Shown here piece after piece: positions 8,371-62,009 of a stretch of 64,000 bases of DNA. The DNA is taken from NCBI RefSeq assembly GCF_008831285.2, contig NC_045138.2, forward strand, positions 7,781,205-7,845,204, written 5' to 3'. Source of the stretch: Nymphaea colorata (Eukaryota; Streptophyta; Magnoliopsida; Nymphaeales; Nymphaeaceae). The notes beneath the pieces are model-generated. The model did no database searches and had not been told where the DNA came from. It worked only from the letters and a program-made list of their open reading frames with translations. Each line of letters starts with the position of its first letter. Position 1 is the first letter of the stretch. A program made the translations under genes and the position numbers.

Positions 8371-8929
8371 GTAAAGTATTTTGTCGCATCTTTTTTATGT
8401 TAATATTTATTTGAGTCATTATTTAGTTTCAATAATAAATGTTGTAGTTTTTATATACATTCTATTGTGCAGGTGAATTGATGATGATATGTGACTATTT
8501 TCAATGGAAACAAAGGCAAAAACTGATTGTGTTACATGGAAAGAATATAAAACTACTTGTTTTAGGTAACATTTTTTTTTTGTTTTGGAGTGTATAAATG
8601 CACTTGTTCGCTAAATTTTATGTTGTGGTATTTATATGTCTACCTTATGCTCACACCTACATTACTTTAATAGAAATAAAGCACATTATCTGTTTAGGAC
8701 ATATCACGTTTTGTGCTAATGACACAAAAAATTTCTAATTTGTGTCGTAGGATAGGTCGCTCTTCACGTTCATGACGTGACAATTATATACTACATATGT
8801 TCACTTGTGCTACATTATTGTTTGCAAATTCTATCTAAAGTAAGTGTGTGTGTGTGTGTATATATATATGTATATATATAATATTAACATTATTCGTATT
8901 ATATATTACATTTCGTAACATTAAACATA
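8371..8929. other. Spacer with a GT/AT microsatellite
   Basis: AT-rich sequence between the hAT-like and CACTA-like remains. It contains a mixed (GT)n(AT)n run at about 8844-8880. No coding signal is seen. It could include non-coding parts of either transposon. Confidence 0.5.
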
Positions 8930-10466
8930 TTATATATTATAGTTCGTTCTTGGACCATCTCCACCCATGTGAGCATGATTCATTTCAATCGTGCCATCGA
9001 AATAGCGTGCATCTCGATGATATTGATGATTGATTAGTAGTATATCACTACCTATTAGAACTTGTCAAACAATACAAAGAAGTGTCTTTATGACAACAAA
9101 GATAGGCTAATTGACCTTTTGTACTCCATCTTAATAGATTTGCATATGCATGAAAATCATTGATGGTCCATAGTAATACTGCACATAATATAAATGTCTC
9201 ATTCTTCGATGCATCATATAGGTTGACACCAACTTCTCACAATTCTTTCAACTCTTCTATCAATGGTTGTAAGTACATAATCAATATCATCTAAGATTAC
9301 CAAAAATATGAAATGAAAGCATGCAAAAAAATTGTTTCATCCAAGGAGGAAAATTATAAGCAACTAAAACAACTGGCCACATGCTATGAGTTGTGCTCAT
9401 TATTTTGAAATGACTAAAATCATCACTCGTTAGTCCCAGTCTAATTTATTATGAGATTCAAAAGCAAATTGCATGTGACGTTCATCAAAAGATTTCCATG
9501 TAAAATAATCAATTGGATGTCTCAAGTGGTTGTCCTTGTTACAACTCTCATCATGTCATTTCATGTAAGCCGTCATCTTAGATGACACAAAAAGTCGTTG
9601 AAGTATGAAGATTCAAAGAAAATGCCACACAACATTAGCTGGAATTTTATTTTTCTTTGAACTATCTCCAGCTAGTTCACCAACTACTTTCCATCTTGAT
9701 GTACCACAAACATCACAAAATTCTTTGGTCATAGCATCCTTCTAATATAACAAGCAATGTTTGGGACATGCATCAATCTTAATATAATTGAGCTATAAAA
9801 TCTCTAATAATTTTTTTGGTCTCATAATAGTGTTTGGTAGCTTCTCCTCCTCTGGAAATACTTCCTTCAATAACTCTAACAACAAGGAAAATAAATGACT
9901 TGTTGTTCCATCCTGTAAGTCTTTTAATTTGAATGAGCTGCACTAAGAAGGTTAACTTCGTAAATCTCTTGCAACCAGGGTACAACTCATGCTCAACATC
10001 ATCCAACAACTTCTTAAATGTCTCAAATTTTGTATTGGAGGAAGTTGTAGAATCATTCTCCCCACCTAACTCAAACACATGAAGTCTATTTTTTGAGTAC
10101 GTCATCGAGTAATTCATATATATCATCATTATCTACTTGCTTATCAAATACAGTATCCCCATTAATTGTTGATGAAGATGAAGCTTCCCCATGATAATAC
10201 CATTGGATATAATTTGCAAAAATTTCATTGCACATTAGGTGATCGAAATAACAAAAGTTCAATACAGACAATTGTTGCACTTCATGCATGATCTTTCCAT
10301 TATTCGCAAGGTTGTTGGCCGTGGCAAATTTGATGAATTCTTTTGCTCTACTAGCATATCCACCACTTGGCCTATTAAAAAAAAATATTAACCATTACGT
10401 TTTGTTAACATTTAGTCTTCTAAACAAACAATACATCAACTTGTTTATCCAACTTTCATTTGCCAT
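8930..10466 (-). pseudogene. Decayed CACTA (En/Spm) transposase, TNP2 type
   Basis: Read on the minus strand from 10466: ATG and MANESWINKL, the usual start of the transposase-associated domain; then SRAKEFIKFA and the WYYHGE block (10190-10360) typical of the same domain. Then come KKLLDDVEHELYPGC (about 9980-10020), KIDACPKHCLLY (9745-9780), KDAMTKEFCDVCGTSRW (9690-9740), FTWKSFDERHMQFAFES (about 9455-9510) and SMWPVVLVAYNFPPWMKQ (about 9335-9390), all in the order of TNP2. The last traceable piece ends near 8950. Frameshifts and stops occur throughout and the catalytic C-terminal half is missing. CACTA terminal repeats were not found. Likely an old fragment. Confidence 0.82.
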
Positions 10467-11280
10467 GAAATCCAATAATATTCTTTCAATCTTTGATCTA
10501 TTAGCAATTAACTCATGGACATCCCGGCTGATACCACTAAAACAGAAGAAACCTAATACTTGGAAGTGAGCATCAACAATAATTTCTAAAAAATGTGTTG
10601 CTGCTTACGTTAAGTTCTTAGTCTTGTGCGCTGAACTACTGAAACAAAAGGTCCCAAATCTAGTGCAATATCAGAAACAAGAGTATTGATGGTCTTATCC
10701 AAAATTCAGACCATGTTTCAGTCATTTTCATTTTTTAGATTGACACTCGGACTATTACTTAAGATAATCTTTTATGCAAGAAATTATTCCTATATTTACT
10801 AACTGTATCAAAAAAAAATTAATAGTAAAAGGAAATTGGTTGTGATTTTTTGGTTAGTTTAGATGGAAGAAATTATGGTATGAAATGATTCCAGTGCATA
10901 AATAGAATCGTTCCACAACTCAAAAAAAATGACATAACTGAATTTTCATTAATTCAAAAAAAATTATCAGGGAAATGCAATGAACTATAATTCAAAAATA
11001 TTGAGGTGCTCTCTATATATAGGATGCATGTGATTTTAGTCAATTTTCAAGGCAACTGGAGCATCCTTATGTACAATTATTTGGATACAAGGTACATGGG
11101 CAATGAGATTTTAGAAATACAAGTGCAAACCTGAGTAATGAAACATTCTAGGAAGCAGGAAGTGATATATGTGGAGAAACTTTTCAGCAACTAAAAAGCA
11201 CTATCAACAAGATACCAAGTAAAAGAAAGTGACTAAGAACATAAAATCAACAAGAAATGAAGTAAAACGACATGTATGTT

Positions 11281-11287
11281 GTGTGTG

Positions 11288-11334
<47 letters not shown>
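11281..11334. repeat. (GT)n(AT)n microsatellite
   Basis: Sixteen bases of GT repeat followed, after CT, by about 36 bases of uninterrupted AT repeat. Confidence 0.95.
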
Positions 11335-11338
<4 letters not shown>

Positions 11339-21489: not shown

Positions 21490-24400
21490 ATGGAGTCGAC
21501 CCCCACTAGGATGGTCTCTTTAAATGGGAACAATTGGACTATATGGAAAGCGAAAATGAAAGATTTGCTGTATTGTAAAGACTTATATGCACCCATTGAG
21601 AACCAGAAGCCAGCGAATATGACAGATGAAAAATGGAAGTTATTGGATGGGAAAACCATTGGCACCATCAGACAATGGTTAGATGACTGTGTTTTTCATT
21701 TGGTATCCGCAGAGACGAGCGCGAAGTCGTTATGGCAGAAGTTACATGATCTTTATGAGAGGAAAACAGCTGGGAACAAGGCTTTCTTGATTATGCAATT
21801 GGTAAATCTGAAACTTAGAGAGGAAAAACCAGTGTCAGAGCATTTGAATGAAGTGTAGAGCATAATCAATCAGTCAGCCATGAAAATGATATTAGATGAT
21901 GAGTTACAGGCAATGTCACCTGGGTGCGTTTCCCAGAAGCTCGCACCCGCACCGGGTGCGTTGTGGGTGCGGGTGCGGTGCGGGTGCGCTCCAGGTGCAC
22001 ACCCAAACCGCACCCGATGATGATGCGCACCCAAACCGCACTCAGGGGAGTTGGATCAAGTTTCGAGTTGAATCCAAATCCAAACCAAGTTTATTGCGTG
22101 TATGGTTTGGATCTGGATATGATTTCGGGATGAAATCAGATTAAAAATCCACAAAATCAAATCCCCATCGGCCGTTGCATCTAATTTAATACATCTATAA
22201 ATATATTATATGTTCTCTTTTCTCTTTCAAAAAAAACGATACAGGACTAAAGAATGGTGGTTTTCATAAAACGATCTGTTTGCCTTTTTTTCAAACATTT
22301 TTTTTTTTATTTTTTCCCATTATCATAAAAATGTATAATTTTAATTGTGTTATTCAATTTCTACGAAAAATTAATAATAATAATAATATTAATATTAATA
22401 AAATATCTTCACCGCACCGCCGCACCTAATATTTTTGAGATGTGCCGCACCGGCACCCGCACCCGCACCCGGCATTCAGGTGACATAGGTTACAGGCACT
22501 CTTGTTGCTTAGTTTAGTTGTTTCTTTGAGCAACTCCGCTCCAGATGGTGTGCTTACGATGAAGCATGTAACCAGCAGCATTCTAAATGAAGAAACAAGG
22601 AGAAAGTCTCTTGGTACTGGTAGCTCGCAAGTATTAGTGATGGGAGACAGGGGTAGACAGAAGAACCGTAACAAATGGCAAGACAGATCAAAATCCAGGT
22701 CCAAATCAAGACCAAAGATGACAGGTAAATGTTTTCACTGTGGTATTCCAGGGCACAAGAAGATTGATTGCAGGAAATTAAAAGAAGAAAGAGAGCAGAA
22801 AAAGAAGACTCAAGAGAATGTGAAGCCAAAAGAATACACTGCAGTTGCTTCAGATGATGAGGTAGTGTTATTTTTATCTGAAGAAAATGATTATCTTACA
22901 GTTCAGAATGGTGATTCTACATGGATTTTAGATGCAGGGGCATCATATCATGCCACACCATGTAGAGAGTTATTCTTATCCTACAGAGCAGATGATTTTG
23001 GAGTAGTTCACATGGGCAACAGTGACACTTCGAAGATTGTTGGGATAGGAGATGTTTGCATTCAGACGAGCACAGGATGCAAGTTGACTTTGAGAGATGT
23101 GAGACATGTTCCAGACTTGAGAATGAATTTGATTTCTGCAGGAAGACTAAGTGAAGATGGATATTGTACTTCGTTTAGTCAGACAGGTTGAAAACTTACC
23201 AAGGGGGCACTAGTGTTGGCTAGAGGTGACAGATTTGGCTCTTTGTATGGGATGAAGTCTTGAATCAATAGTGTGGATGTCAATGCAGTTACTGGTGGTA
23301 CTTCGTCAGATTTGTGGCATAAGAGGTTAGGTCACATGAGTCAAAGAGGAATCGACTTGCTCACCAAAAAGAATTTGTTACCAAAGGCAGATGGTGCACA
23401 GAGATCTCCATGTGATCATTGTTTGGTTGGTAAGTTGCATCGAGTTTCCTTTCAGAAAAAGCGCTCTTCAAAAACTAAACATGTATTATATTTAGTTTAT
23501 TCAGATGTATGTGGACCTATAAATGTGACATCTAAAGGTGGAACATCCTATTTTGTTACATTTATTGATGATATATCTAGGAAGGTGTGGGCCTTTACAA
23601 TGAAAAGCAAAAGTGAAGTAAGTAGCATCTTCATGACTTTTCATGCAGCGGTTGAGCGCGAGACTGGTAAGAAGATGAAGAGACTGCGTACAGATAATGG
23701 TGGTGAGTACATAGCATCTTCTTTACGAGAGTATTGTCTAAAGCATGGTATTAGACATGAAAAGACAGTTCCTTATACTCCACAGCATAATGGAGTTGCA
23801 AAAAGGATGAATAGAACAATAATTGAGAGAGTTGGAAGTTTGTTATCTAGCTCTAAGTTGCCTAAGTATTTTTGGGTAAAGGCAATACGTACTGCAGTTT
23901 ATTTAATAAACAGGTCTCCTTCAGTGCCTCTAGATGGAGACATTCCACAGAGAGTTTGGTCAGGTGAAGAGGTTAAGTATGATCACCTTAGAGTTTTTGG
24001 TTGCAAAGCTTTTATGCATGTACCTAAAGAACATAGGACCAAACTAGATGATAAAGTTATTCCTCTGGTATTTCTTGGTTATGCAGATGACGAATTTGGT
24101 TACAGGTTATGGGATCCAAAGAATGACAAAATCTATAGGAGTCGTGATGTCTTCAGAGATGATCAGACGATTGAAGATGTCATGGGTGACACGAAGTCAT
24201 GTGTGAATGCTAGTGGTGTTCATGAGCCAACCTATGTAGAACCTAAAGAACTTTCATCTGAGCATGGTGAGACTGATGAAGATGTAGAGGAAGAGGAAAG
24301 AGAGGCAGATGAGCAGTATACAGATGGCAGCTCTATGGAGACTCAAACTGATTATGAGCATGAGTTGGAGGGGGAGCTTCCTTCGCATTCAGAGCCAATT

Positions 24401-26056
24401 GAGGAGCAATTGGGAAGAGGTAAAAGAACACCTATACCATCTACTAGATATTCTACTGATGAATATATTATGTTTACAGATAGTGGAGAGTCAGAATGCT
24501 ATGCAGAGGTGCTAGATGATGTGCATAAAGATGAATGGATTAAAGCTATAAAGGATGAGATGAATTCTTTGTATAAGAATCACACTTTTGATTTGGTAGA
24601 GCTACCAAAATGTAAGAAAGTGTTGCAGAACAAGTGGGTCTACAAGCTTAAAAATGAAGGTCAAGGCAAGTTGAGATACAAAGTTCGGTTATTGGTGAAA
24701 GGTTTCAAGCAGGAAAGAGGTATTGATTTTGATGAAATGTTTTCTCCTGTTGTTAAAATGTCATCTATCAGGGTAATACTTGGTTTGGTGGCTTGTCTAG
24801 ACTTGGAGTTGGAGCAGTTAGATGTAAAAACTATTTTTCTTCATAGAGATCTAGAGGAAGAAATCTACATGACACAACCAGAAGGTTTTGTGGTTGTCAA
24901 GAAGAAACACATGGTTTGTAAGTTGAAGAAGAGCTTGTATGGACTTAAAAAAGCACCTAGACAGTGGTACAAGAAATTTGATGCATTTATGATAAATCAA
25001 AAGTATCGCAGGTCAGCCGTAGATCATTGTGTCTACATCAGAGAGTTCTCATCAGGTAGCTTCATTATCTTGTTGTTATATGTAGATGACATGCTTATTG
25101 TTGGACAGGATTGTCAATTGATTAGCCAATTGAAGATCGATATGGGCTAGTTCTTTGATATGAAAGACTTGGGGCCAGCACAACAATTGTTAGGCATGAG
25201 GATTGTTCGTGGTAGGAAGGCCAAGAAGTTGTGGTTATCACAAGAGAAATACATTGAGAAGGTGCTTAGCAAGTTCAACATGAAAGATGCTAAAACTGTA
25301 AGTACACCTTTAGCAACACATTTTAAATTGGGAAATGAGCAATGTCCTTCTTCAACAGATGAGAAAGAAAGAATGAAGAATGTTCCATATGCCTCCGCAG
25401 TAGGAAGTCTCATGTATGCTATGGTTTGCACACGCCCAGACTTGGCTTATGCAGTTGGTGTAGTTAGCAGGTTCTTGTCAAATCCAGGTAAGAAGCATTG
25501 GGCAGCAGTGAAGTGGATCCTAAGGTATCTGAAAAGTACTTCCACTTACTGTTTATGTTTTGGTGAATCTAATTCAGAGATACAAGGATTTGTTGATGCA
25601 GACATGGTAGGTGATTTGAACTCTAAGAAGTCTCTTTCTAGTTATGTTTTTACTTTTGCAGGGGGAGCTGTATCATGGCAATCCAAGTTGCAGAAGTGTA
25701 TTGCTCTTTCTACTACGGAGGCAGAATATATTGTAGCAACTGAAGTTTGTAAAGAGTTGTTGTGGATGAAGAGTTTTCTTCATGATATAGGCCTTAGTCA
25801 GAAGACCTATGTGTTGCATTGTGATAGCCAAAGCGCTATACACTTGGCGAAAAATTCAACGTTCTACTCAAAGACTAAGCACATTGATGTCAGATATCAT
25901 TGGATTCGTGATGTGCTTGAGCAGAAACTGATTCAGTTAGAAAAGATACAGACAGAGAAGAATCATGCAGATATGATGACAAAGTCTCTACCTAAAGAAA
26001 AGCATGACATGTGTAGAGACTTAGTTGGGATGACTGCCTTTAAGGCAGTGTATTAA
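21490..26056 (+). pseudogene. Near-complete copia-2 gag-pol with stops and a hAT insertion
   Basis: Starts at ATG 21490. Order: Gag (NGNNWTIWKAKMKDLL), CCHC knuckle (CFHCGIPGHKKIDC, 22730-22771), protease (LDAGASYHAT, about 22927), GAG-pre-integrase (LWHKRLGHMSQRG, 23309), integrase core (VTFIDDISRKVWAF; then RTDNGGEY; then TPQHNG), reverse transcriptase (LDVKTIFLHRDLEEEIYMTQP, with N-A changed to T-I; YVDDM at 25079) and RNase H (HCDSQSAIHLAKN, about 25818). In-frame stops lie at 21856 (TAG), 23189 (TGA), 23262 (TGA) and 25148 (TAG). Allowing for the 586-bp insertion, all blocks share one frame, so no frameshift has built up. The Gag/PR style suggests the Tork/Tnt1-like group (memory). Confidence 0.9.
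21911..22488. mobile_element. Non-autonomous hAT element, copy A (CTATGTCAC family)
   Basis: 578 bp inserted in the Gag region of copia-2. The 8-bp GTTACAGG lies on both sides (21903-21910 and 22489-22496), an exact target duplication, and the copia reading resumes after the second copy. The ends are CAATGTCACCTG and, reversed, CTATGTCACCTG. Just inside are GC-rich runs of GGTGCG/CGCACC units (about 21920-22020 and 22415-22472); the middle is very AT-rich. There is no transposase. It is younger than copia-2. Confidence 0.88.
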
Positions 26057-37319: not shown

Positions 37320-40300
37320 ATGGAGAGAGAATTCGAGCAGAAGGTCGGGTTGAACACGGGGAGCCGCGACGAGAGCTGTAATGGCGCTACGAGATCGAGG
37401 AACTTCGCGTTCAGGGCGCCTCAGGAGAACTTCACCATCAACGACTTCGAGCTGGGAAAGCTCTATGGCGTCGGCTCGTATTCAAAGGTAGATAAGGAGA
37501 ACCCACTTTCTCATTTCCTCTCTTTTTTTTTTATATCCGGTGTTCTTTTCACCTCAGAATGTGTGGAACGCCAAGTTTCTTATTCAGAAATCGGTTCTTT
37601 TCTAATTTTTGTTTAGGGAGTTGTTCTTTTGGGGACTAAAATGGTCGTTTTGCTGCATTTGTGTTGCCTAATCAAGTTTCATTTGATGCATCATGAAATA
37701 TTCGCTATTTGCTGAAGATGGTATGGTCTTGTTTTATGGTTCTCCTTCTCCATTCGACGCAAGATTATGGTTATTTTTTTGTTTTCTTCCTTCTGGTCTC
37801 AATGCTTCGTATACCTTTTCTCTCCAAACAAAACTGGATTCTGAGCTTGGGGCCATAGTTTTATAGCTCTAAAAGTTACTGAGAAGGTTATTCAGGTTAC
37901 TGGCACGAATGTAAAAAGGAAAGGATAGGATTTAGTATTGCATGATGTGGTGTTTGAAGCTTCAGAAATAAATTTCTTAGGTTAGATTGTATAATAAGTT
38001 CATGACAACCTTAGAATCATTACCTTCAGTAAGCTACTGGACTAGGTTGGTTGATATTTGAAGTTTGGAAACCTCATAATGCACTTTAGTTGATTAGCAC
38101 TGAAGAATGGCTTTGCCTGATGAAATCGCTGAGATTGTGGTAATACAAATTGGTGTCTCTTAGGTCTAAAAGAGGTTATTCTGTCTGGACCAAAGGCTAC
38201 AGGCCACCTTGTAGAATTTGCATTTTGGGACTTGTAAATGGAATTGAAACTCTTCTTAATGTAGGGCGATTTATGCGTGGTTGGACTGAACGCAAGTTAG
38301 TTTCAGTTCACCCCTTTCTTCTTCATATTTTATTTGCTTCACATGGGCAATGTTTTCAGGCACATCTTTCTCCTTACTCAGTTTGAATCTACAGCAAACT
38401 TCATTCTCGTAAATAAATCAGCTAGTTTCACACGTTTCACAATATTTTACCTGGTATCCACCTATCTATATTGTTGTACTTTTTACCGAAAAAGCTATTT
38501 AATGATTTGTGGTACATGGAGATCAGATCAGTGTGCACTATTGAAAGTAAGTTATGTAACACATGCATGTATGCTATAATCTACCAGTTTTTACATGTTA
38601 TCTAGTTACATTTTCCTATATATGTACGATAATGCACTATAATTCTGTGCCTTCATGAATGAAGCATATCATGTAGTCAGGTGATCGACACTCTCATGAG
38701 TGAACAAGAAACATATGGAGCACTTTGGGTAAGTGCATGAGAAAGGGATGTGGAACTATGTAAACATATAGGACGTCAATTAAACCTATGTTACAAGATG
38801 CTAAATTAACAATCAACGGCAAATCAATTTCCTGAAGTAAATGAGCTTAAACAGAAGTTGTTAATTTTGGCAGGTAAAATGACAATGTTGTTGGGCATAG
38901 TCACTTCCCTTTGTTTGAACTTTGGCCCTAGGCAGTGAAACTAAATGTTATCCCTGGAATCTTAGATATGTGAGCTGAGACTACATCTGTGACATGTTTA
39001 TGGGTTCAAGTTGATTAGGACATATTGATCTATTGAGTAAATATGAAGCATATTAGCATCGGTGGTATTTGTAGTGCAAGTGGAAACAGAACCATCGTTG
39101 AATGAATTCTTGGAAGAGGTTAAAAAAGGAAAATAAACTCAATGTTGATTTTGGAGGGCAAAACGACAATATTTTGGGCATAGTCACCTTCCTTTGTTTG
39201 AACTTTGGCCCTATGCAGTGAAACTACATGTTTTCTCTACAATCTTAGATACTAAGTCACATGGGTACTTCAGTAAGGTCCACGTACCCGTGTCGCCTAC
39301 CCATACCCAAAATGGGTACTTTGACACTTGGATACCTATAGATCCAAACTGCTTAATTTTACTTTGATTTAATTTTTTTCACCTTACTTTTTATTCTATT
39401 CTTTGGATGTGAAAATTCGATTGATGTTCGTATTTGACTAAGGGGCTGCTTGGTTGTCCATATGTTTAAAGTTTTTCACAGGTTTCTAAAACACATTGCT
39501 GCAAGAGCCGTTGATATATATTTTCTATGTTATTTATTTGTTTATGTTGATGTATATTCTTTATTTTGATATATATTTTCTAAGTATTTCTTATTGTTTA
39601 TATATATATACGGCTGTACCCTTGCACCCGAGTTTTTTGAAAATTGTCAGTACTCGTACCTGCACGGCTGCACCGGTACCCGCACCAGCACCCGTACCCG
39701 TACCTATGTGACATAGCTTAGATATGAGCTGGGACTATGTCTATTATATCTGCAACATGTTTATGGATTCACGTTGATTAGGACATGGTGATCTGTCGAG
39801 TAAATATGAAACATAACATATTAGCATTGGTGGTCCTTGTGGTACAAGTGGAAACAGAACCATCATTGAAGTAATTTTGTTGAGAGGTTAAAAAAGAAAA
39901 ACAAAGTCAGTGTCTTTTCTATCCTGTTTTTGTTTTTTATTGTGGACTTCCTTTCAAATTTTGGTATACTGAACAGAAATGGTGTGCTGGTTTCCACTAT
40001 CCTTTGCTCAATATTCGTAGTCTCCATATCTCTGAACTGCATGTGTTCTTTTATTTCAGGAAGAAAAGTCCTGAAAAGAAACACATTAGTTTGAGGATTA
40101 TGTTCCTGAATTTCTACATTAAAGAAATTACTGATTTGGATTTGTCTCTCCAATTTGTTTATTAAAGCAATTATTGCTCATGGAGCAGACATTAGTAACT
40201 CCAAAATGCAGGTGTGATTGCTGAAAGGATCCTGCTTTTATTTCTTGTTCAGGAAGCGTGCAGCATATGTAGTCAGATGTCTTGTTTAACCATGTGCATG

Positions 40301-43300
40301 TGTGTGTGCACTCTTACATATGAAGCTTTTCTAGGTAGACAGAATTGTGAACATTGTGGAAGAAAGTCATTAACTAGTCAATTTTTTTTTTCCAGTTTTC
40401 AGTCATATGTATGTACCATGGTCACCAATTATCTTTCTCAGTAAGATTTTCCTTGGAAGTTTTCTTCTTAAATGTGGGGTTCCTTTGAAAACTTCAAAAA
40501 CTAAACGTCAAGAAAAAAATATGAACAAGAGAAAAAAAACTAAAAGGTTTAGCTCTTCTAAAACTTCCTTTTGCAAAATAATTAGGAACCAATGATAAAA
40601 TCTTTTTAAAAGAGGTCATATTATTTAAGCATGTGTTTCAGAAAATTTCTTAAGAAATTTGCAGTGAATATTATATTATCATGATATTATCAGGACATAT
40701 AATTTTTTTAGTTGTATTTTCCCAATGGTTGGCTGGCTATGCTGATAATACCAAAACATTTCCAAATTTTTAGAGATAATATGGTAACTGTATATGTATT
40801 CTATTCTATTTGTATGTTTCTGTGCATGTATGTGCTTTTCATTTGACGGAAGTAGCAGGTCATGCTGGGAATCAGAATCTCTCACTTGTTTCAGAAATAA
40901 TCTTACGATTTTCAAATATATTTGAATTTTTTTGCTAATTCCTTGCCAAACCTGCAAAATAAAGTATGCCTGCTAATATAGTCAACCTTTCACACGTATA
41001 AGTCTCATATCATTGATGAATCTTCTGTGAACTACTCCTTGCAAGTGTATATGATCTTCATCATAATAAATGCTTCATGTCATCAGGTGGTCAGAGCGAG
41101 GAAGAAAGACACAGGAAATGTATATGCTCTGAAGATTATGGACAAAAAGTTCATTACCAAGGAAAATAAAATATCATACGTGAAGATGGAACGTGTTGTT
41201 CTGGATCAATTGGATCATCCTGGCATCATAAGGCTGTTTTTTACCTTCCAGGATACATATTCTTTATGTATGTCTTCCCAACTTTATCCTTTGTCAGGTG
41301 TTTTCTTTTCTTTCCTTTTAATTGCCTTTTCGTTATTTGATCAAACCATGGATAAGTATATCACTTTGGTCTTTAATTATCTTATCTGCACTTGGGTATT
41401 AATGTCTGGACTAAAATGGAAAAATGCTAAAACTTTAACCCTACTTGAATGCCATCGAAAACCAGGCTAAAAATTATGGTTTTGTCCTCTTTAAGTATTG
41501 TGCTATGCTTAAATTGAAATCGGTATGTCCTAATGCTTTATAATCTTCAACAATATCTTATGGATAGGTCTGCAAGCATATTGGATCAACACAGAATTTT
41601 GATTTCTCCTTTTTTGGATTTCCTTAGTTGAATCCACATCCCATTTTTTATTTGGCTTGTTATGACCCTTATGTACCACTACGTGTAGACATGGCACTTG
41701 AATCTTGTGATGGAGGTGAGCTTTTCGACCAAATAACGAGGGTAGGTTTTCTTCCTGCCAAGACAAAATTTTGATAGACAATTTACCATACAATATCATA
41801 CTTAAGGATTTTCCCCTATTCTTTTCAAGATCAGAAGGGTCGCCTATCTGAAGATGAAGCACGATATTATGCAGCAGAAGTTATTGATGCTCTGGAGTAC
41901 CTACATGATGTAGGATTAGTTCATCGTGACATTAAGGTATTGATCTTGATTGGCATCCTTCTATTCTCTAATAAGAAGATGACTACTAACCATTTTTTGC
42001 TTCTGCCAGCCAGAAAACTTGCTGCTTACTGCAGATGGTCATATAAAAATAGCCGACTTTGGGAGTGTTAAGCCTATGAAAAACTGCCAGATCACAGTCC
42101 TTCCAACAACTTCTGAGAGTAGTAAGGCTTTTCATTAACTATTGGAAAATTAAGTGATTATCTTGTGCTGCAATTTTTATTTAGTTGTTCTCTTATGCAG
42201 ATGAAAAGGCTTGCAGCTTTGTGGGAACAGCTGCATATGTACCCCCGGAAGTCCTGAACTCTTCTCCTGCATCCTTTGGGTAGACATTAAAATATTGTCA
42301 TTTTCATTTATAAGTTAAAGCCTAAAGGCTGTTATTTTGCTCTAACCCTGTCCATGTATTCTTGAACAGAAATGATCTCTGGGCACTTGGTTGCACCTTA
42401 TATCAGATGCTTTCAGGGGCGTCTCCCTTTAGAGATGCCAGTGAATGGCTTATTTTTCAAAAGATAATAGCAAGGGACCTCAAGTTTCCAGATTACTTCT
42501 CATCTGATGCAAGAGAACTTATTGACAAGTTATTGGTGAGTTTGATCTTTCAACTTCATTTTTATTGTAATGTTTCTGGATTTTAACATTACCTTTCTTA
42601 ATTCAGTTTCAATATTCCCCTTCTTCTTCACTACAGATGTCATTGCAGGGTACAATTTTTTTATGACATTTGCCTTTAGTTCAATTACCTGCTCTAATCT
42701 ATTAGCTTGACGTGGATAATTTTTCTCTTTTTTGTATTTTTGGTCCATCACATAAACAAGGACATGCCACACTATCTGCTTAGGTTTGCTACCTTTCGGG
42801 TACTGTATTCTCTTCCATGTTGAATGTTTCTGTATTTAATCTGGCATATGCATTATTCATACTGATGTTAGTCCTGATGAACACTTAGTTGATGCTTAAA
42901 TATGTATTCAGTTCGTCTAGGTTCAGTAGCCCATAATGTGCCCAAATTTGAAGTTTTTCTTTTTCTTTAATTTTCTTTTCTGCGGGCTGAAACACATCTT
43001 TACTGCCTCTTACATTCTCAAATTAATTATTCTGATGTAATTGGTGCTGAAGTGTCCTTTATTGCACTTGCTATGATATCCTTTTATAGCAGCTTCAGTT
43101 TAAAGGAAAAATTTTGCAACGGCATAGATAAATCCATATTTTCTTTCATTTATTGCTGTGTGCTCATGTATCTTATATGCAGAATTACATTTGCGGTTTA
43201 CAATCAGTTAAAGGATAATAACTACCCATGACCATAAATGCGCTTGGTGGTTGCCGCGTCCACACGTTCAGCATAATCAACATCATGCACTTGATAGCTT

Positions 43301-46300
43301 TAGAAACTGATCATCATTGCACAATCAGCACGTCCAGCAGCACTTGCACTTCATGTGTGGTGGTTTCTAGATCTGACCATGATGCCACGATCAGCACATG
43401 TCATGTTTGGTGGTTCCATGCCTCACACGATCAGAACATGTCATGCTTGGTGGTTCCAGCCTCACACGATCAGCACGTCATGCTTGGTAGAAACGTCTAT
43501 CTTAATATCCCCCTTCAAACTGGACTGGTGTTGTAGTGCAGACTGAGTTTGTTTCTCAAGAAAATGAACCGTGCTCTTCCCAAGGGCTTCGTGAATATAT
43601 CAGCGATCTGATCGGTTGAAGGAATATACCTGGTTTCAAGGAGCTTGGCAGCCACTCTTTCTCAAACATAATGATAGTCCAATTCAATATGTTTGGACTG
43701 ACTATGTTGCACTGGGTTGATGGTCATGTGTAATGCTGATTGATTATCGCAGAACACAATAGGTGTTTGTGTATATCAACTCCAATATCTCTTAGGATAT
43801 AATTGATCCAAGTTATTTCAGCTGCTGCTGCAACTAGTGCACGATACTCTGCCTCTGAACTTGATCGTACTACAGTGGGCTGCTTTTTGGCAGACCAAGA
43901 GATGCAATTAGGCTCAAGGTATATGTTGTAGCCTGTTGTTGAATGCGGAGTGATTGGGCATCCTGCCCAGTCAGTGTCTGAGTACCGCTGTAGAAGCATA
44001 GATTCTATAGGTTTTATTCTTAAACCATAATTGATAGTGGCCTTTACGTACCTGAGGATTTTCTTCACCAGTTGGAAATGAAATTGTGATGGTGACTGCA
44101 TATAATGAGACACAAAATTCACATTATAGACTAAATCCGAGCATGTGAAAGTTAAGTATTGTAAGCTACCAACCAAACTCCTGAAAAGGGTAGCATCTTG
44201 GAAATTTGATGTAGGCTGATTACAGTAGGGAGATTCTCCCATGGGTGTGCTGCTAGGTTTACAATCTAGCATGTTAGCTCGCTTGAGGATCTCCTTGGCA
44301 TATCTAGTCTGGTTTAAAAACATACCTGCTTCATTTTGTTGGACCTGTACACCAAGGAAATAATGGACGCTGCCTAGATTTTTCATAGCAAAGGTGTGGC
44401 TGATGTTTGAAATGAATGCTTTCAATGTGTTAGGCTTGTCACCAGTTATAAGTATATCGTCGACATACAGAAGTAACCATATGACTCCATGTTCTCCTTT
44501 GCGTATGAATAAAGATGAATCTGCTGGACTACAAAAGAATCCATAGTTTAATAGGAAATCACTGAATTTATTAAACCACATCCTAGCAGATTGGTGCAAC
44601 CCATATATGGCTTTGTTCAACTTATAGACATGATTGGGCTTATATGGGTCCTTGAATCCTGGTGGTTGATCCATATACACAGGTTCTTCCAACTCGCCAT
44701 GGAGGAATGCATTCTTTATATTAATTTGATGTATCATCAATCCTCTAGAGAGAGCAACGGTGAAGATAATTTTGATTGTTGTAGGTTTAATAACTGGTGA
44801 AAAAGTTTTCACAAAATCTATACCTGGAAGTTGGTTGTATCCCTTAGCCACGACTCTAGCCTTGAATCGCTCTAAGCTGCCATCTGCTTTTACTTTGGTT
44901 TTAAACACTCACTTGCAGCCGATAATGTGCATAGATTGTTCTTTGGGAACCAAATCCCATGTTTTTGTTCGTTTGAGAGCATATATTTCCTCCTTCATTG
45001 CATCCATCCAACCTGTATCTGACAAAGCTTCTTTAATGAAGCTTGGTTCCTTAGGCAATTTTTTGCAAGTTAGTGAATACCGAGGATTCGGTCTCACTAC
45101 TCCATGCATTGAGCGAGTTATCATTTGTCTTACCGGAACAGGTGCAACCTCTGTATGATCAGTTCCAAGCAGTTCATCAGAGGATGTAGAATTTTCTTCC
45201 ATGTCACCATGCTCTTCTCGTAGTTCACCGATGTCATCTTGTGAATAGGTGTGTTGCTCTTGACTTACTTCCTTGATTCCATGCATTTTTGTGAGATCAC
45301 TAGCTGTTCTGTCTTGGCTAACGTTTTGTTTTTGCTCTCCACTAAGTTGGCCTTTACTCGCCTCTTCATCAGCAGGAAACCATGGTTTATATCCAACATC
45401 AAAAATTTGAGTTTTTGCATCGCCTATAATTTTAAATGAATATACATTTTCATTAAAAATACACTGCCTCGAAATATATACACCCCCTGTTTTAACATGT
45501 AGGCACCTATAACCTTTATGCATTGCACTATAGCACAAGAAAACGCAGGGCAATGATCTTGGATTGAGTTTATGCTTGATATAATCTCTTAGGTATAAGA
45601 AGCATAAGGATCCAAAAATTCTCATATAACTGTAGTCAGGCTTAGTTTTAAATAAATTATCATATGGAGAGGTCATATTCAGCCTAGGTGAAGGAACTCT
45701 ATTATGAACCCAAACTGTAGTATTGAATGTCTCAACCCAATATTTGGGAGGCAAACCAGCATGGAACATCACAGCTAACGTAAGTTCTGTAATAACCCTA
45801 TGTTTTCTCTCTACCTATCCATTTTGTTGTGGCGTATATGGGCAGGACATCATGTGCTGAATTTCATTTTCTTGAAAAATTTTCATCCTGAAATTATCAA
45901 ATTTTGTTCCACCATCTGAGTGAAACGCTTTGATCATTTTATTAAACTGGTTCTTCACATATATGATGAATCTTTCAAAACAATGCACAAATTCTGATTT
46001 TTCTTTTAAAGGAAAAAGCCAACAGAATTTGGTTAAATCATCAACGAATATTGCATAATACCTCATGCCTTGAACTGAATTGACTGGTGACGGACCCCAC
46101 AAGTCACAAGGTAGTATGTCAAAAGGTTGTGCATCCCTATTATCAACAGAAAAGAAAGGGAGACGAGAAGATTTTGCCATAGAACAACCAGCACATAGAT
46201 TTCTTTCTGTAATGTTCGAACTACAAATCTGGTTTTGTTTATTCAAGAACTTTAAAACTCCAAAATTAACATGAGCTAATCTTCTATGCCATGTTTCTAA

Positions 46301-51285: not shown

Positions 51286-51566
51286 TAGGAGTGGGCATCG
51301 GGCCAGGCTTGGGCTCAATACCCAGCCTCAGCCCGGTTATAATAAAAAATACATTTTTTAAATATAAAATACATTTTTAATAATAAAATATATATTATTA
51401 ACAACAAAAAATATTTTTTAAAAATATATCAGGTCAAATCGAGCCCCATGGGGCCCATTCAGACTGGCCCATCGGGCCCATGGTCAAGAAGAGTTTTTCA
51501 GGCCTGAACCTGAGCTTATACCAGGCCCCCGCCACCGCCAGTGGCCCGACATGACGCCCAACCTTA
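51286..51566. mobile_element. Small hAT element, copy G (TAGGGGTGG family)
   Basis: 281 bp. Ends TAGGAGTGGGCATCGGG and, reversed, TAAGGTTGGGCGTCATG. The flanks ATGGATCT (51278-51285) and ATCGATCT (51567-51574) match at 7 of 8 bases, the expected hAT duplication length. GGGCC-rich stretches lie inside both ends and the middle is AT-rich. The ends are like those of element F and resemble the TAGAGGTGGCCA end that I recall for rice nDart1. Confidence 0.75.
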
Positions 51567-54944: not shown

Positions 54945-57900
54945 AGAGAGAGAGAGAGAGAGAGAGATGGTCTTATTATAATTTTCCAACTTGTTGGTCT
55001 GTGAATAAACATGACATACCATGTCATGCTTTCTTCTATCAATTGCTATGGTTTTCAATTTAAAGGAGCGTTGCCATGCGTAACATAAAATATAAGTCAG
55101 TAATTTATTTGATCTCCTTAGCTAAAAATGTCTTTTTATTCTTCAAGGACTCTTTCTTTTCTATGTTGTGTAATTTGTTTTTTGTGCCTTGTTAATGTAT
55201 TCCAGAAATTCAATTTTTTTTTATTGGCTTTGTGTCAAAAGCTATGTCACATGACTGCAGGTAGTGTACGAGTTCGGATATGACGGTATGAGTTCGGACA
55301 CGGCAATTTCAAAAGTTGTGGGCACGCATGTACAGCAAATTATATATTTTCAAAAATGATAAAATGAAAAAAAAAAACATTAATAGTCTTATAATCCACA
55401 AAAATTCTCAAAATTAAAAAAAATGGGAGGAAAATATAGAATCTTAGTGGAGGAAAATATAAAAGGGAAAATCAAAAATTAAGAAAAAATTAAGTTTGAA
55501 AATATAATTTTAAATGTTTTAGAATGCAGCCATGCCCATATACCTATGTCGCCATAACCACGTACCAACATGGGTACCTAGGCAAATTACACGTACCTGT
55601 GTCACATAGGTCAGAAGTCATGAAAGGCTTTGGGATGCCTACAAGGTCTATTGTTTTAGGAGGATGGATCATTTGAAGAATCAACAACTGCCAACATCAT
55701 TTAAGACGGGGATTAGGGGTGGCCATCGGGCCGGGCCGGGTATCGGGCCTAGCCACCAAAAGTCAGGCCCGGCCCGCCTCCTTCGGCGATTCCGCCGCGT
55801 CAGCCTCGCCCACTCCTCCGGCAACGACGACACAGAGACCCGCGGCATCCTCGCTTGTGCCACCGGCGTCGGCATCTCCATACGTGCTTGCCCTCAACGG
55901 AATGTTCACTTCGCCGGAGCTGGCCCAGGGGATCGTCGACGCCTGGCTCAATACCCCATTCAAATCTTCGTGCCCGGCGAGCGGCGGCGTCGCCTGGCCT
56001 GGCGAGATTGACACCTTTCTGAGCAACTCCCTGTCTGAGATGTCGAAGATCCCTGCCGCGTGCTCCGCTGGAGGCGGAGGGGCCTCCTGCGCCATCTGCT
56101 TCCGCCCGAATCTACCCGCCGGTGATGAACGAAGAGAGGGAGAGGTAGAGGGAAAGGGGGAGTAGAGGTAAAGGGGGAACCAGAGAGGGAGAGGGGGAAT
56201 CGGGAGCAAAGAGGGAAAGGGGGAACCAGAGAGGGAGAGGGGGAATAGGGAGCAGAGAGGGAAAGGGGGAACCAAAGAGGGAGAGGGGGAATCGGGAGCA
56301 GAGAGGGAAAGGGGGAACCAGAGAGGGTGAGGGGGAATCGGGAGCAAAGAGGGAAAGCAGGAACCAGAGGGGGAGCCGGGAGTGGAGAGGGAACCAGAGA
56401 GGGACTGAGAACGGGTCGCGAAGAAGGGTGAGCCAAGGAGAGGGAGATGGGGACGGAGGCGGAGAGGGAACCAGAGAGGGACTGAGGGAGAGGGGGAGAA
56501 GAGAGGGGGAGCTGAGAGGGAGGGGACGGACAGCCCGAGGAAGGGACTGTCGGGCCGCGCCGGGCCGCCCTATCGGGCCCGATCCCGGCCCAGGACCACT
56601 GCCGGGCCGGAAAATCTGGCCCGGGCCCGGGCCCATTCGGGCCGGGCCGGGCCGGGCTGGCCCGTCGGTGTCCCGACCCGATGCCCAGGCCTAATGGGGA
56701 TGACCAAAATCCAATGTTGTAAAAAACGTATCATAAGCCGTATCGGTCTGACTTTAAGATACGTTGTATCGTAAAATATCGTAACGTATCGTAACCGTAT
56801 CATTTTTTTTAATAAATTGAAAAAAATAGGAAAAAAATTCAAAAAATTCATAAAAAATCGCTAAAAAACAAGAATAATATGTTCTTCATAAAAAACACAT
56901 ACATTTATAAGTTATAAGGTCCATAAGTCTACGAGATACCACAACAAAAAACAAGTTTTAAATGTTACATATTATATCACAAGATGACAATGAAATTGTG
57001 AAAATGTTCAATGTCAATACATATAAAATGAAAACACTCTCGACTTTCATTCATAATCATATTCATTCTCATCCTCATCTCCATCTTCTTCTTCATTTTC
57101 ATCTTCACAATTTAAAAAAATTTCCCTCCACGGCAGCACAATCTCTAGGTTAAAAATGAAGAACGGCCGGGTTTTTATAAAAAAACTCGAAAAGGAGAGT
57201 TTCAGCCCCCATTTTTTGAAATCAGCCTGTATCGTAAGATTCGGGGCGTGTATCGTATCGTATTTTATAAAAGATAGGTATCGTATCGTAGGTATCGACC
57301 CCGTATCATACGTACCGTACAACACTGCCAAAATCCTGAAGAAGACTAGGTCCGGTCAGATTGCTTCCATTTCTTCATTATGAAAGTATCGAAAACATCC
57401 AGAAAACTTCTAAGAATCTTCAAACAATTTTCTTAAATATAGAATTTCTAGCATTATCAAATTCAAATACAGAAGTTATTTAGAGACATGAGTTTCTCTT
57501 GCCTATGTTTGATCCTATTTAGTATCTAGCGCTACTCTAGTCCTTCTGTGGCTATAGCGGATACGAGGATTCAGACATGGCATGTTGTCATCCACAGAAA
57601 GAAGAAAACACTTGTTGACACCATTCAGGTTCTTAGAAAACATTACAGCAGTATCAAAGCCCTAATGGTGAATTTCATGGTCACATTCTCATCTTTAATT
57701 TGTATGTTATAATATTTCTCCTTGTCTTTTACTCTTTCTTTGTTTTCCTTTGGTGTTTCTCGTTTGTTATACTTTTTCTATGCATTTTCATGTGTTCTAC
57801 CTTTTCTATGCATTTTCATGGGTTCTAGTCTCTGCGTCTGTGTGCAATATCTGTTATATTTTGAAAATTTTACAACAGAATCGCCAATCTGAACCTTCCG

Positions 57901-61196: not shown

Positions 61197-62009
61197 CTGA
61201 CGAAAAGCACAAACAATCGCTTCAGAACAAATCTAATCCACAAATTTTCACCATAAACAGAAGCCCATGTGTGATTTTGCTCTAAATTCTGCTTATATCG
61301 ATGGCAAATCTGCCAAATCACATGGTAAGATAAGCAAGCAGTAAATAAAGGGACACTAACTTTCTGCCAACTTTGAATTACCAGCCAGATTCATGACTGC
61401 TTGCAACTCCACCACCTTCACAGGTTTAGATGTTTTTGTTACCAAACACTCGTGAAAAGACAGTGGTTACTCTTAACATGGAACACAACATTGAAAAGTG
61501 ACGGTCTTTTTTATCAAGTGTCATAGGCTCTTGTTCATATTTATTCATCAGATTGGCTCCACCCTCCCTCAAACGTGTACTCATTTCCTCTGCCGGGGTG
61601 TTTGAATGTGTGGTATTTCATTATAGAAATGAAATTAAAATTCAAAATCCTAAAAAAGTTCCAGGACTCCGTAATTGTAGAACAAAAAACTCAAGTTTCT
61701 AGGGCGGATCTACAATTAAGTACCAAGATTAAAGTCCCACCTATCATAATCGTGGCCTTTTTTTTTTTTTTGCATGTGTTGCTCACCTCGTTTTCTTTAA
61801 ACACACTCCTCAGCGAAAAAAAAAAAAATCAATTTTTTAAATAAAATTCCCTCCCCATCAAACAAGGGAAGAAAAAAGTATCCGTCGAAGGCTTTTGCGG
61901 ATTTTTTTTTCCGGAAATTTCTTTCCACCGTCGGGGTGGGAAAAAATTTTCGAAAATATTTTTTTGCCCGATAGGGCTTCTCCTCTTCGCGTCGGTTGGA
62001 GCTCCCCTC

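Follow-up and report, generated by a model that had tools for sequence, protein, structure and literature searches.

Related-to-empty sites (RESites) provide an established argument for the mobility of plant transposons, following the strategy of Le et al., in which the element is compared with a paralogous sequence that lacks it; the cases described in PMC2213677 concern PIF/Harbinger-like elements and were recovered in BLAST searches that used joined flanks. The hallmarks of hAT elements, as given in PMC10741241, are short inverted repeats of 5–27 bp and 8-bp duplications, and the consensus of their terminal inverted repeats (TIRs) begins with CA, according to PMC4423477; a consensus of this kind is no strict criterion. 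Two groups of short hAT elements offer the closest descriptions. Maize Ds1 and Ds-l4, of the Ac/Ds system, are short, carry 8-bp duplications and 11-bp TIRs, and are described as having little in common beyond the TIRs and, in part, subterminal repeats (PMC3260210). BniHAT-1 and BniHAT-2, the hAT MITEs of Brassica nigra described in PMC7385995, are 673 and 666 bp long, with inverted ends of 25 and 12 bp and 8-bp duplications.

In the window, by which we mean the whole 64,000-nucleotide stretch of Nymphaea colorata DNA that was analysed, the first intron of a PDK1-like kinase gene contains an insertion for which a paralogous empty site exists, a case of a known kind (Table 1). As with the RESites of PMC2213677, a paralogous sequence is present without the element; unlike those, the paralogue here lies in the same intron, as the neighbouring tandem unit. 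The control lies next door, which makes the case a tidy one: the adjoining empty unit fixes the ends of the 465-bp insert, called copy B below, to the base and without a second genome. It is a textbook internal control for insertion, a neat but ordinary example that leaves the general picture of transposition unchanged.

The window holds three copies of the same end-type (A, B and C), which are short, alike mainly at their ends and bordered by 8-bp duplications, as described for maize Ds1 and Ds-l4 (PMC3260210). Their ends read C(T/A)A(T/A)GT(C/G)AC... and carry GYACC/GGTRC motifs, whereas Ac/Ds has the hexamer AAACGG, Ac being compared by its description only. Copy B also resembles BniHAT-1 and BniHAT-2 in its shortness, its inverted ends and its 8-bp duplication, but these are 70 and 75% AT where copy B is 63% AT, and the 434 intact copies reported for BniHAT-1 in B. 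nigra contrast with the three copies of the present window (PMC7385995).

The host gene was assigned from its first two exons. Exon 1 extends to 37487 and exon 2 starts at 41087, and their join is in frame (SYSK to VVRARKK); Pkinase (PF00069) was matched on exon 1 + exon 2. The exon 2 peptide best matches chains of 3-phosphoinositide-dependent protein kinase 1 (E = 5.8e-14), ahead of other kinases. Among the 174 PDB sequences that it matched, the best 21 are all entries for PDK1, including one whose name is just PkB-like. We call the gene PDK1-like in the sense of this best peptide match, a putative assignment. Downstream of the kinase-like exon sequence, on the minus strand, lie retrotransposon frames (43727–45814) that match RVT_2 (E = 3.8e-63) and SH3_retrovirus (E = 2e-23), and which we take to be of the copia type.

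Table 1. Positions in the window of the tandem units, the insert and its target sites, the host intron and the two further elements.
Feature	Position	Strand	Details
Intron 1 of the PDK1-like kinase gene, host of the duplication and insert	37488..41086	+	3599 bp, GT...AG
Tandem unit 1, holding the empty site	38857..39141	+	about 285 bp
Empty target site CTTAGATA, once in unit 1	38961..38968	+	homologous point to the insertion
Unit 2 of the tandem duplication, split by the insert	39142..39913	+	right edge of homology at about 39913
Left target-site duplication CTTAGATA	39244..39251	+	sequence at the unit 2 junction
Copy B, putative 465-bp non-autonomous hAT-like element	39252..39716	+	ends CTAAGTCACATGGGTAC / CTATGTCACATAGGTAC (15/17)
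Right target-site duplication CTTAGATA	39717..39724	+	sequence at the unit 2 junction
Copy A, same end-type, 578 bp	21911..22488	+	8-bp duplication GTTACAGG on both sides
Copy C, same end-type, 368 bp	55242..55609	+	borders GTCAAAAG / GTCAGAAG, 7/8

Units 1 and 2 are adjacent copies of each other, and the original stretch measures about 285 bp. When the insert is removed from unit 2, 240 of the 275 aligned positions are identical between the two units (87.3%); the 35 mismatches comprise 24 transitions and 11 transversions (K2P 0.14), and the alignment contains 26 gap positions. Divergence is alike on both sides of the insertion point, with 87.2% identity in the left part (109 positions) and 87.9% in the right part (165 positions). 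A BLAST search with E up to 0.01 found no further matches to either unit in the window. The tandem duplication in PDK1 intron 1, which had been proposed in a preliminary description of this DNA, is thus upheld by the identity of the units, by the intron and by the PDK1-like exon 2 peptide. The unit coordinates given there also hold, except for the right edge of homology in unit 2, which lies at about 39913 and not at 39905.

The insert is present in the second unit only. There, CTTAGATA occurs twice, with 465 bp between its two copies, and in unit 1 it occurs once, at the point homologous to the insertion. A T precedes the left copy, whereas the insert ends in G; the insert begins with C, whereas a T follows the right copy. 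These outer bases differ from the end bases of the insert; therefore, the duplication is exactly 8 bp long and the ends are unambiguous. When the units are aligned at the junction, the borders of the insert coincide exactly with the duplicated 8 bp. The preliminary description had named a disagreement between the two as the outcome that would contradict it; none was found, and its insertion with exact ends stands on the 8-bp target-site duplication, the unambiguous outer bases and the paralogous empty site together.

We now turn to the insert itself. The TIRs of copy B are imperfect (10/12 and 15/17). It contains no frame longer than 73 aa, and this 73-aa frame had no match in Pfam; no transposase linked to copy B was found in this search of one frame against one database. 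At 465 bp, and with frames of at most 73 aa, copy B is short and non-coding, as a MITE is. Its GC content is 36.6%, compared to 36.8% for the window, 40.5% for copy A, 32.3% for copy C and 27% for its own middle, so that its AT content is no different from that of the window. A BLAST search of the insert against the window, with the match to itself set aside, returned three weak matches, two of which lie in copy A (about 22444–22471). The third is on the minus strand at 51388–51431, with 79.5% identity over 44 bases, and corresponds to insert bases 316–358. When 30 bases of the right end of copy B were used as an exact pattern, there were 0 matches in viral_contigs, where a plant element is expected only as contamination, and four strings from the element ends had no occurrence in the literature searched, a scope distinct from that of the repeat databases.

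Knowing exactly where copy B ends helps in delimiting A and C, together with other elements of this end-type. A blind scan examined 9,743 pairs of identical 8-mers, required inverted ends of at least 10/12, and returned four pairs, two of which are copies A and B; the remaining two rows are 24468–25560 and the TA-rich 8863–11335. Five controls with a shifted right end returned 0, 0, 1, 1 and 1 pairs. The blind scan did not pick up copy C, because the ends of this copy agree at only 9/12 and its borders at 7/8. A second scan, using a 12-base end string with one N and a threshold of at least 10 of the 11 scorable bases, yielded six matches, five of which fall at the ends of the three copies. This end-sequence scan supplied the left end of copy C (55242), while its right end (55609) was read by eye and then checked. 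The sixth match is a lone end-like CTATGACACTTG at 61526 on the minus strand; it was dropped as an element end, being without a partner among the matches of the same scan. At 56164–56375, a 46-bp unit is repeated in tandem (4.6 copies with 92% matches).

Outside their ends, the three copies are hardly alike. The best local match between A and B is at the right end of each, with a score of 42; the highest score among 200 shuffles was 37. Copy C matches copy B over the first ~200 bases (raw score 41) and copy A in an inner stretch (raw score 43), both in inverted orientation. The GYACC/GGTRC motif occurs 17 times in copy A (500 shuffles: mean 1.4, maximum 5) and 13 times in copy B (500 shuffles: mean 1.8, maximum 8), clustered towards the ends of both. 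It is weak in copy C, where its four occurrences are reached by 7 of 500 shuffles. All of these shuffle counts are descriptive, since the motif was picked after inspecting the ends. At 22721–22960, some 230 bp downstream of copy A, a frame matches the zinc knuckle zf-CCHC (E = 0.00032), and copy A may have inserted into or beside a retrotransposon gag-like stretch.

Copy B is best read, by its structure only, as a short non-autonomous hAT-like element. The GYACC/GGTRC counts of A and B and the presence of two further elements with similar ends speak for this reading; the low motif count of copy C and the dissimilar interiors of the copies speak against it. The 8-bp duplications expected of hAT elements are found at all three copies (8/8 for B, 8/8 for A and 7/8 for C), and their inverted repeats, though imperfect in each (11/12 for A and 9/12 for C), are short, as the range in PMC10741241 describes. 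Only one of the six ends, the left end of copy A, begins with CA; the other five begin with CT, including both ends of copy B. We therefore use the term hAT-like and make no firm filing. A preferred target of hAT elements is nTnnnnAn. Of the three copies, C alone fits this pattern, and none fits nnnTAnnn; we gave neither any weight. The hAT identity asserted in the preliminary description is sustained by the 8-bp borders and short TIRs and goes unsupported by the CA start and by Pfam.

The same mixture of characteristics bears on whether a real insertion was made by an element of another cut-and-paste superfamily, for example a Mutator-like element with short ends. We regard this as unlikely, if worth keeping in mind: five of six ends begin with CT rather than CA and no transposase is known, but 8-bp borders flank three of three copies (one at 7/8) and the ends are short. 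In addition, the table in PMC4423477 lists duplications of 9 bp for Mutator and of 2 or 3 bp for the other superfamilies that it covers, which disagree with borders of 8 bp. Such a change would touch the filing of copy B only, and it is compatible with any order of events.

For that order, we consider it probable that a tandem duplication was followed by a hAT-like insertion into unit 2. First, about 285 bp of the PDK1-like gene's intron 1 would have been duplicated in tandem. Later, the 465-bp non-autonomous element would have inserted into unit 2, where an 8-bp staggered cut would have led to the duplication of CTTAGATA. The transposase that moved copy B would have had another source, and we infer that a hAT transposase acted in trans. 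Duplication before insertion is the simplest order, not a proven one, and the preliminary description, according to which the duplication demonstrably came first, keeps the order and loses the proof, as the 8-bp borders are little informative. If they were as old as the duplication, they would have remained identical with a probability of about 0.34, and 0 of 8 changed bases allow for up to about 31% divergence at 95%. The 12.7% difference between the units, compared to the identity of the borders, mildly favours a younger insert.

The element may instead have inserted into a single unit, with unequal exchange between filled and empty chromosomes then yielding the tandem pair of one filled and one empty unit. 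By our count, this would take as many events as the favoured order, a single insertion plus a single duplication, and borders as old as the duplication are identical often enough, at the probability just given, to agree with it. It would, however, require both alleles to coexist when the duplication arose, and the mild preference for a younger insert speaks against it; we give it a slim chance.

More improbable again is that both units were once filled, and that unit 1 lost its insert and one border by precise excision or conversion. In a comparison of sites, precise excision is indistinguishable from insertion, as PMC4423477 points out, and would look the same here. A 2-bp TG indel abuts the target site (TGTG at 38969–38972 in unit 1, compared to TG in unit 2), and it may be taken as a trace of such an event. 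Unit 1 would then be an emptied site with TG as its sole trace, and the pair would record an insertion, a duplication and a near-precise loss, all in one intron, a history to which we attach very little credence. It needs one event more; the rice excisions reported in PMC4423477, of which few cases are hAT, were almost always accompanied by flank deletions or filler, which speaks against a loss from unit 1; and TGTG compared to TG is most simply explained by slippage, and other indels are also present between the units.

Compared to the duplication followed by insertion that we favour, it is hardly credible that the repeats reflect chance likeness or an assembly artefact, with no insertion at all: identical 8-mers do recur at the spacing of the insert borders at 5 of 63,519 window positions, the CTTAGATA pair included, but this pair sits precisely where the alignment of the units breaks, which makes chance unlikely, the ends of the insert are inverted repeats, two relatives of the same design are present, and units that differ at 12.7% of positions would not be a false duplicate of one locus.
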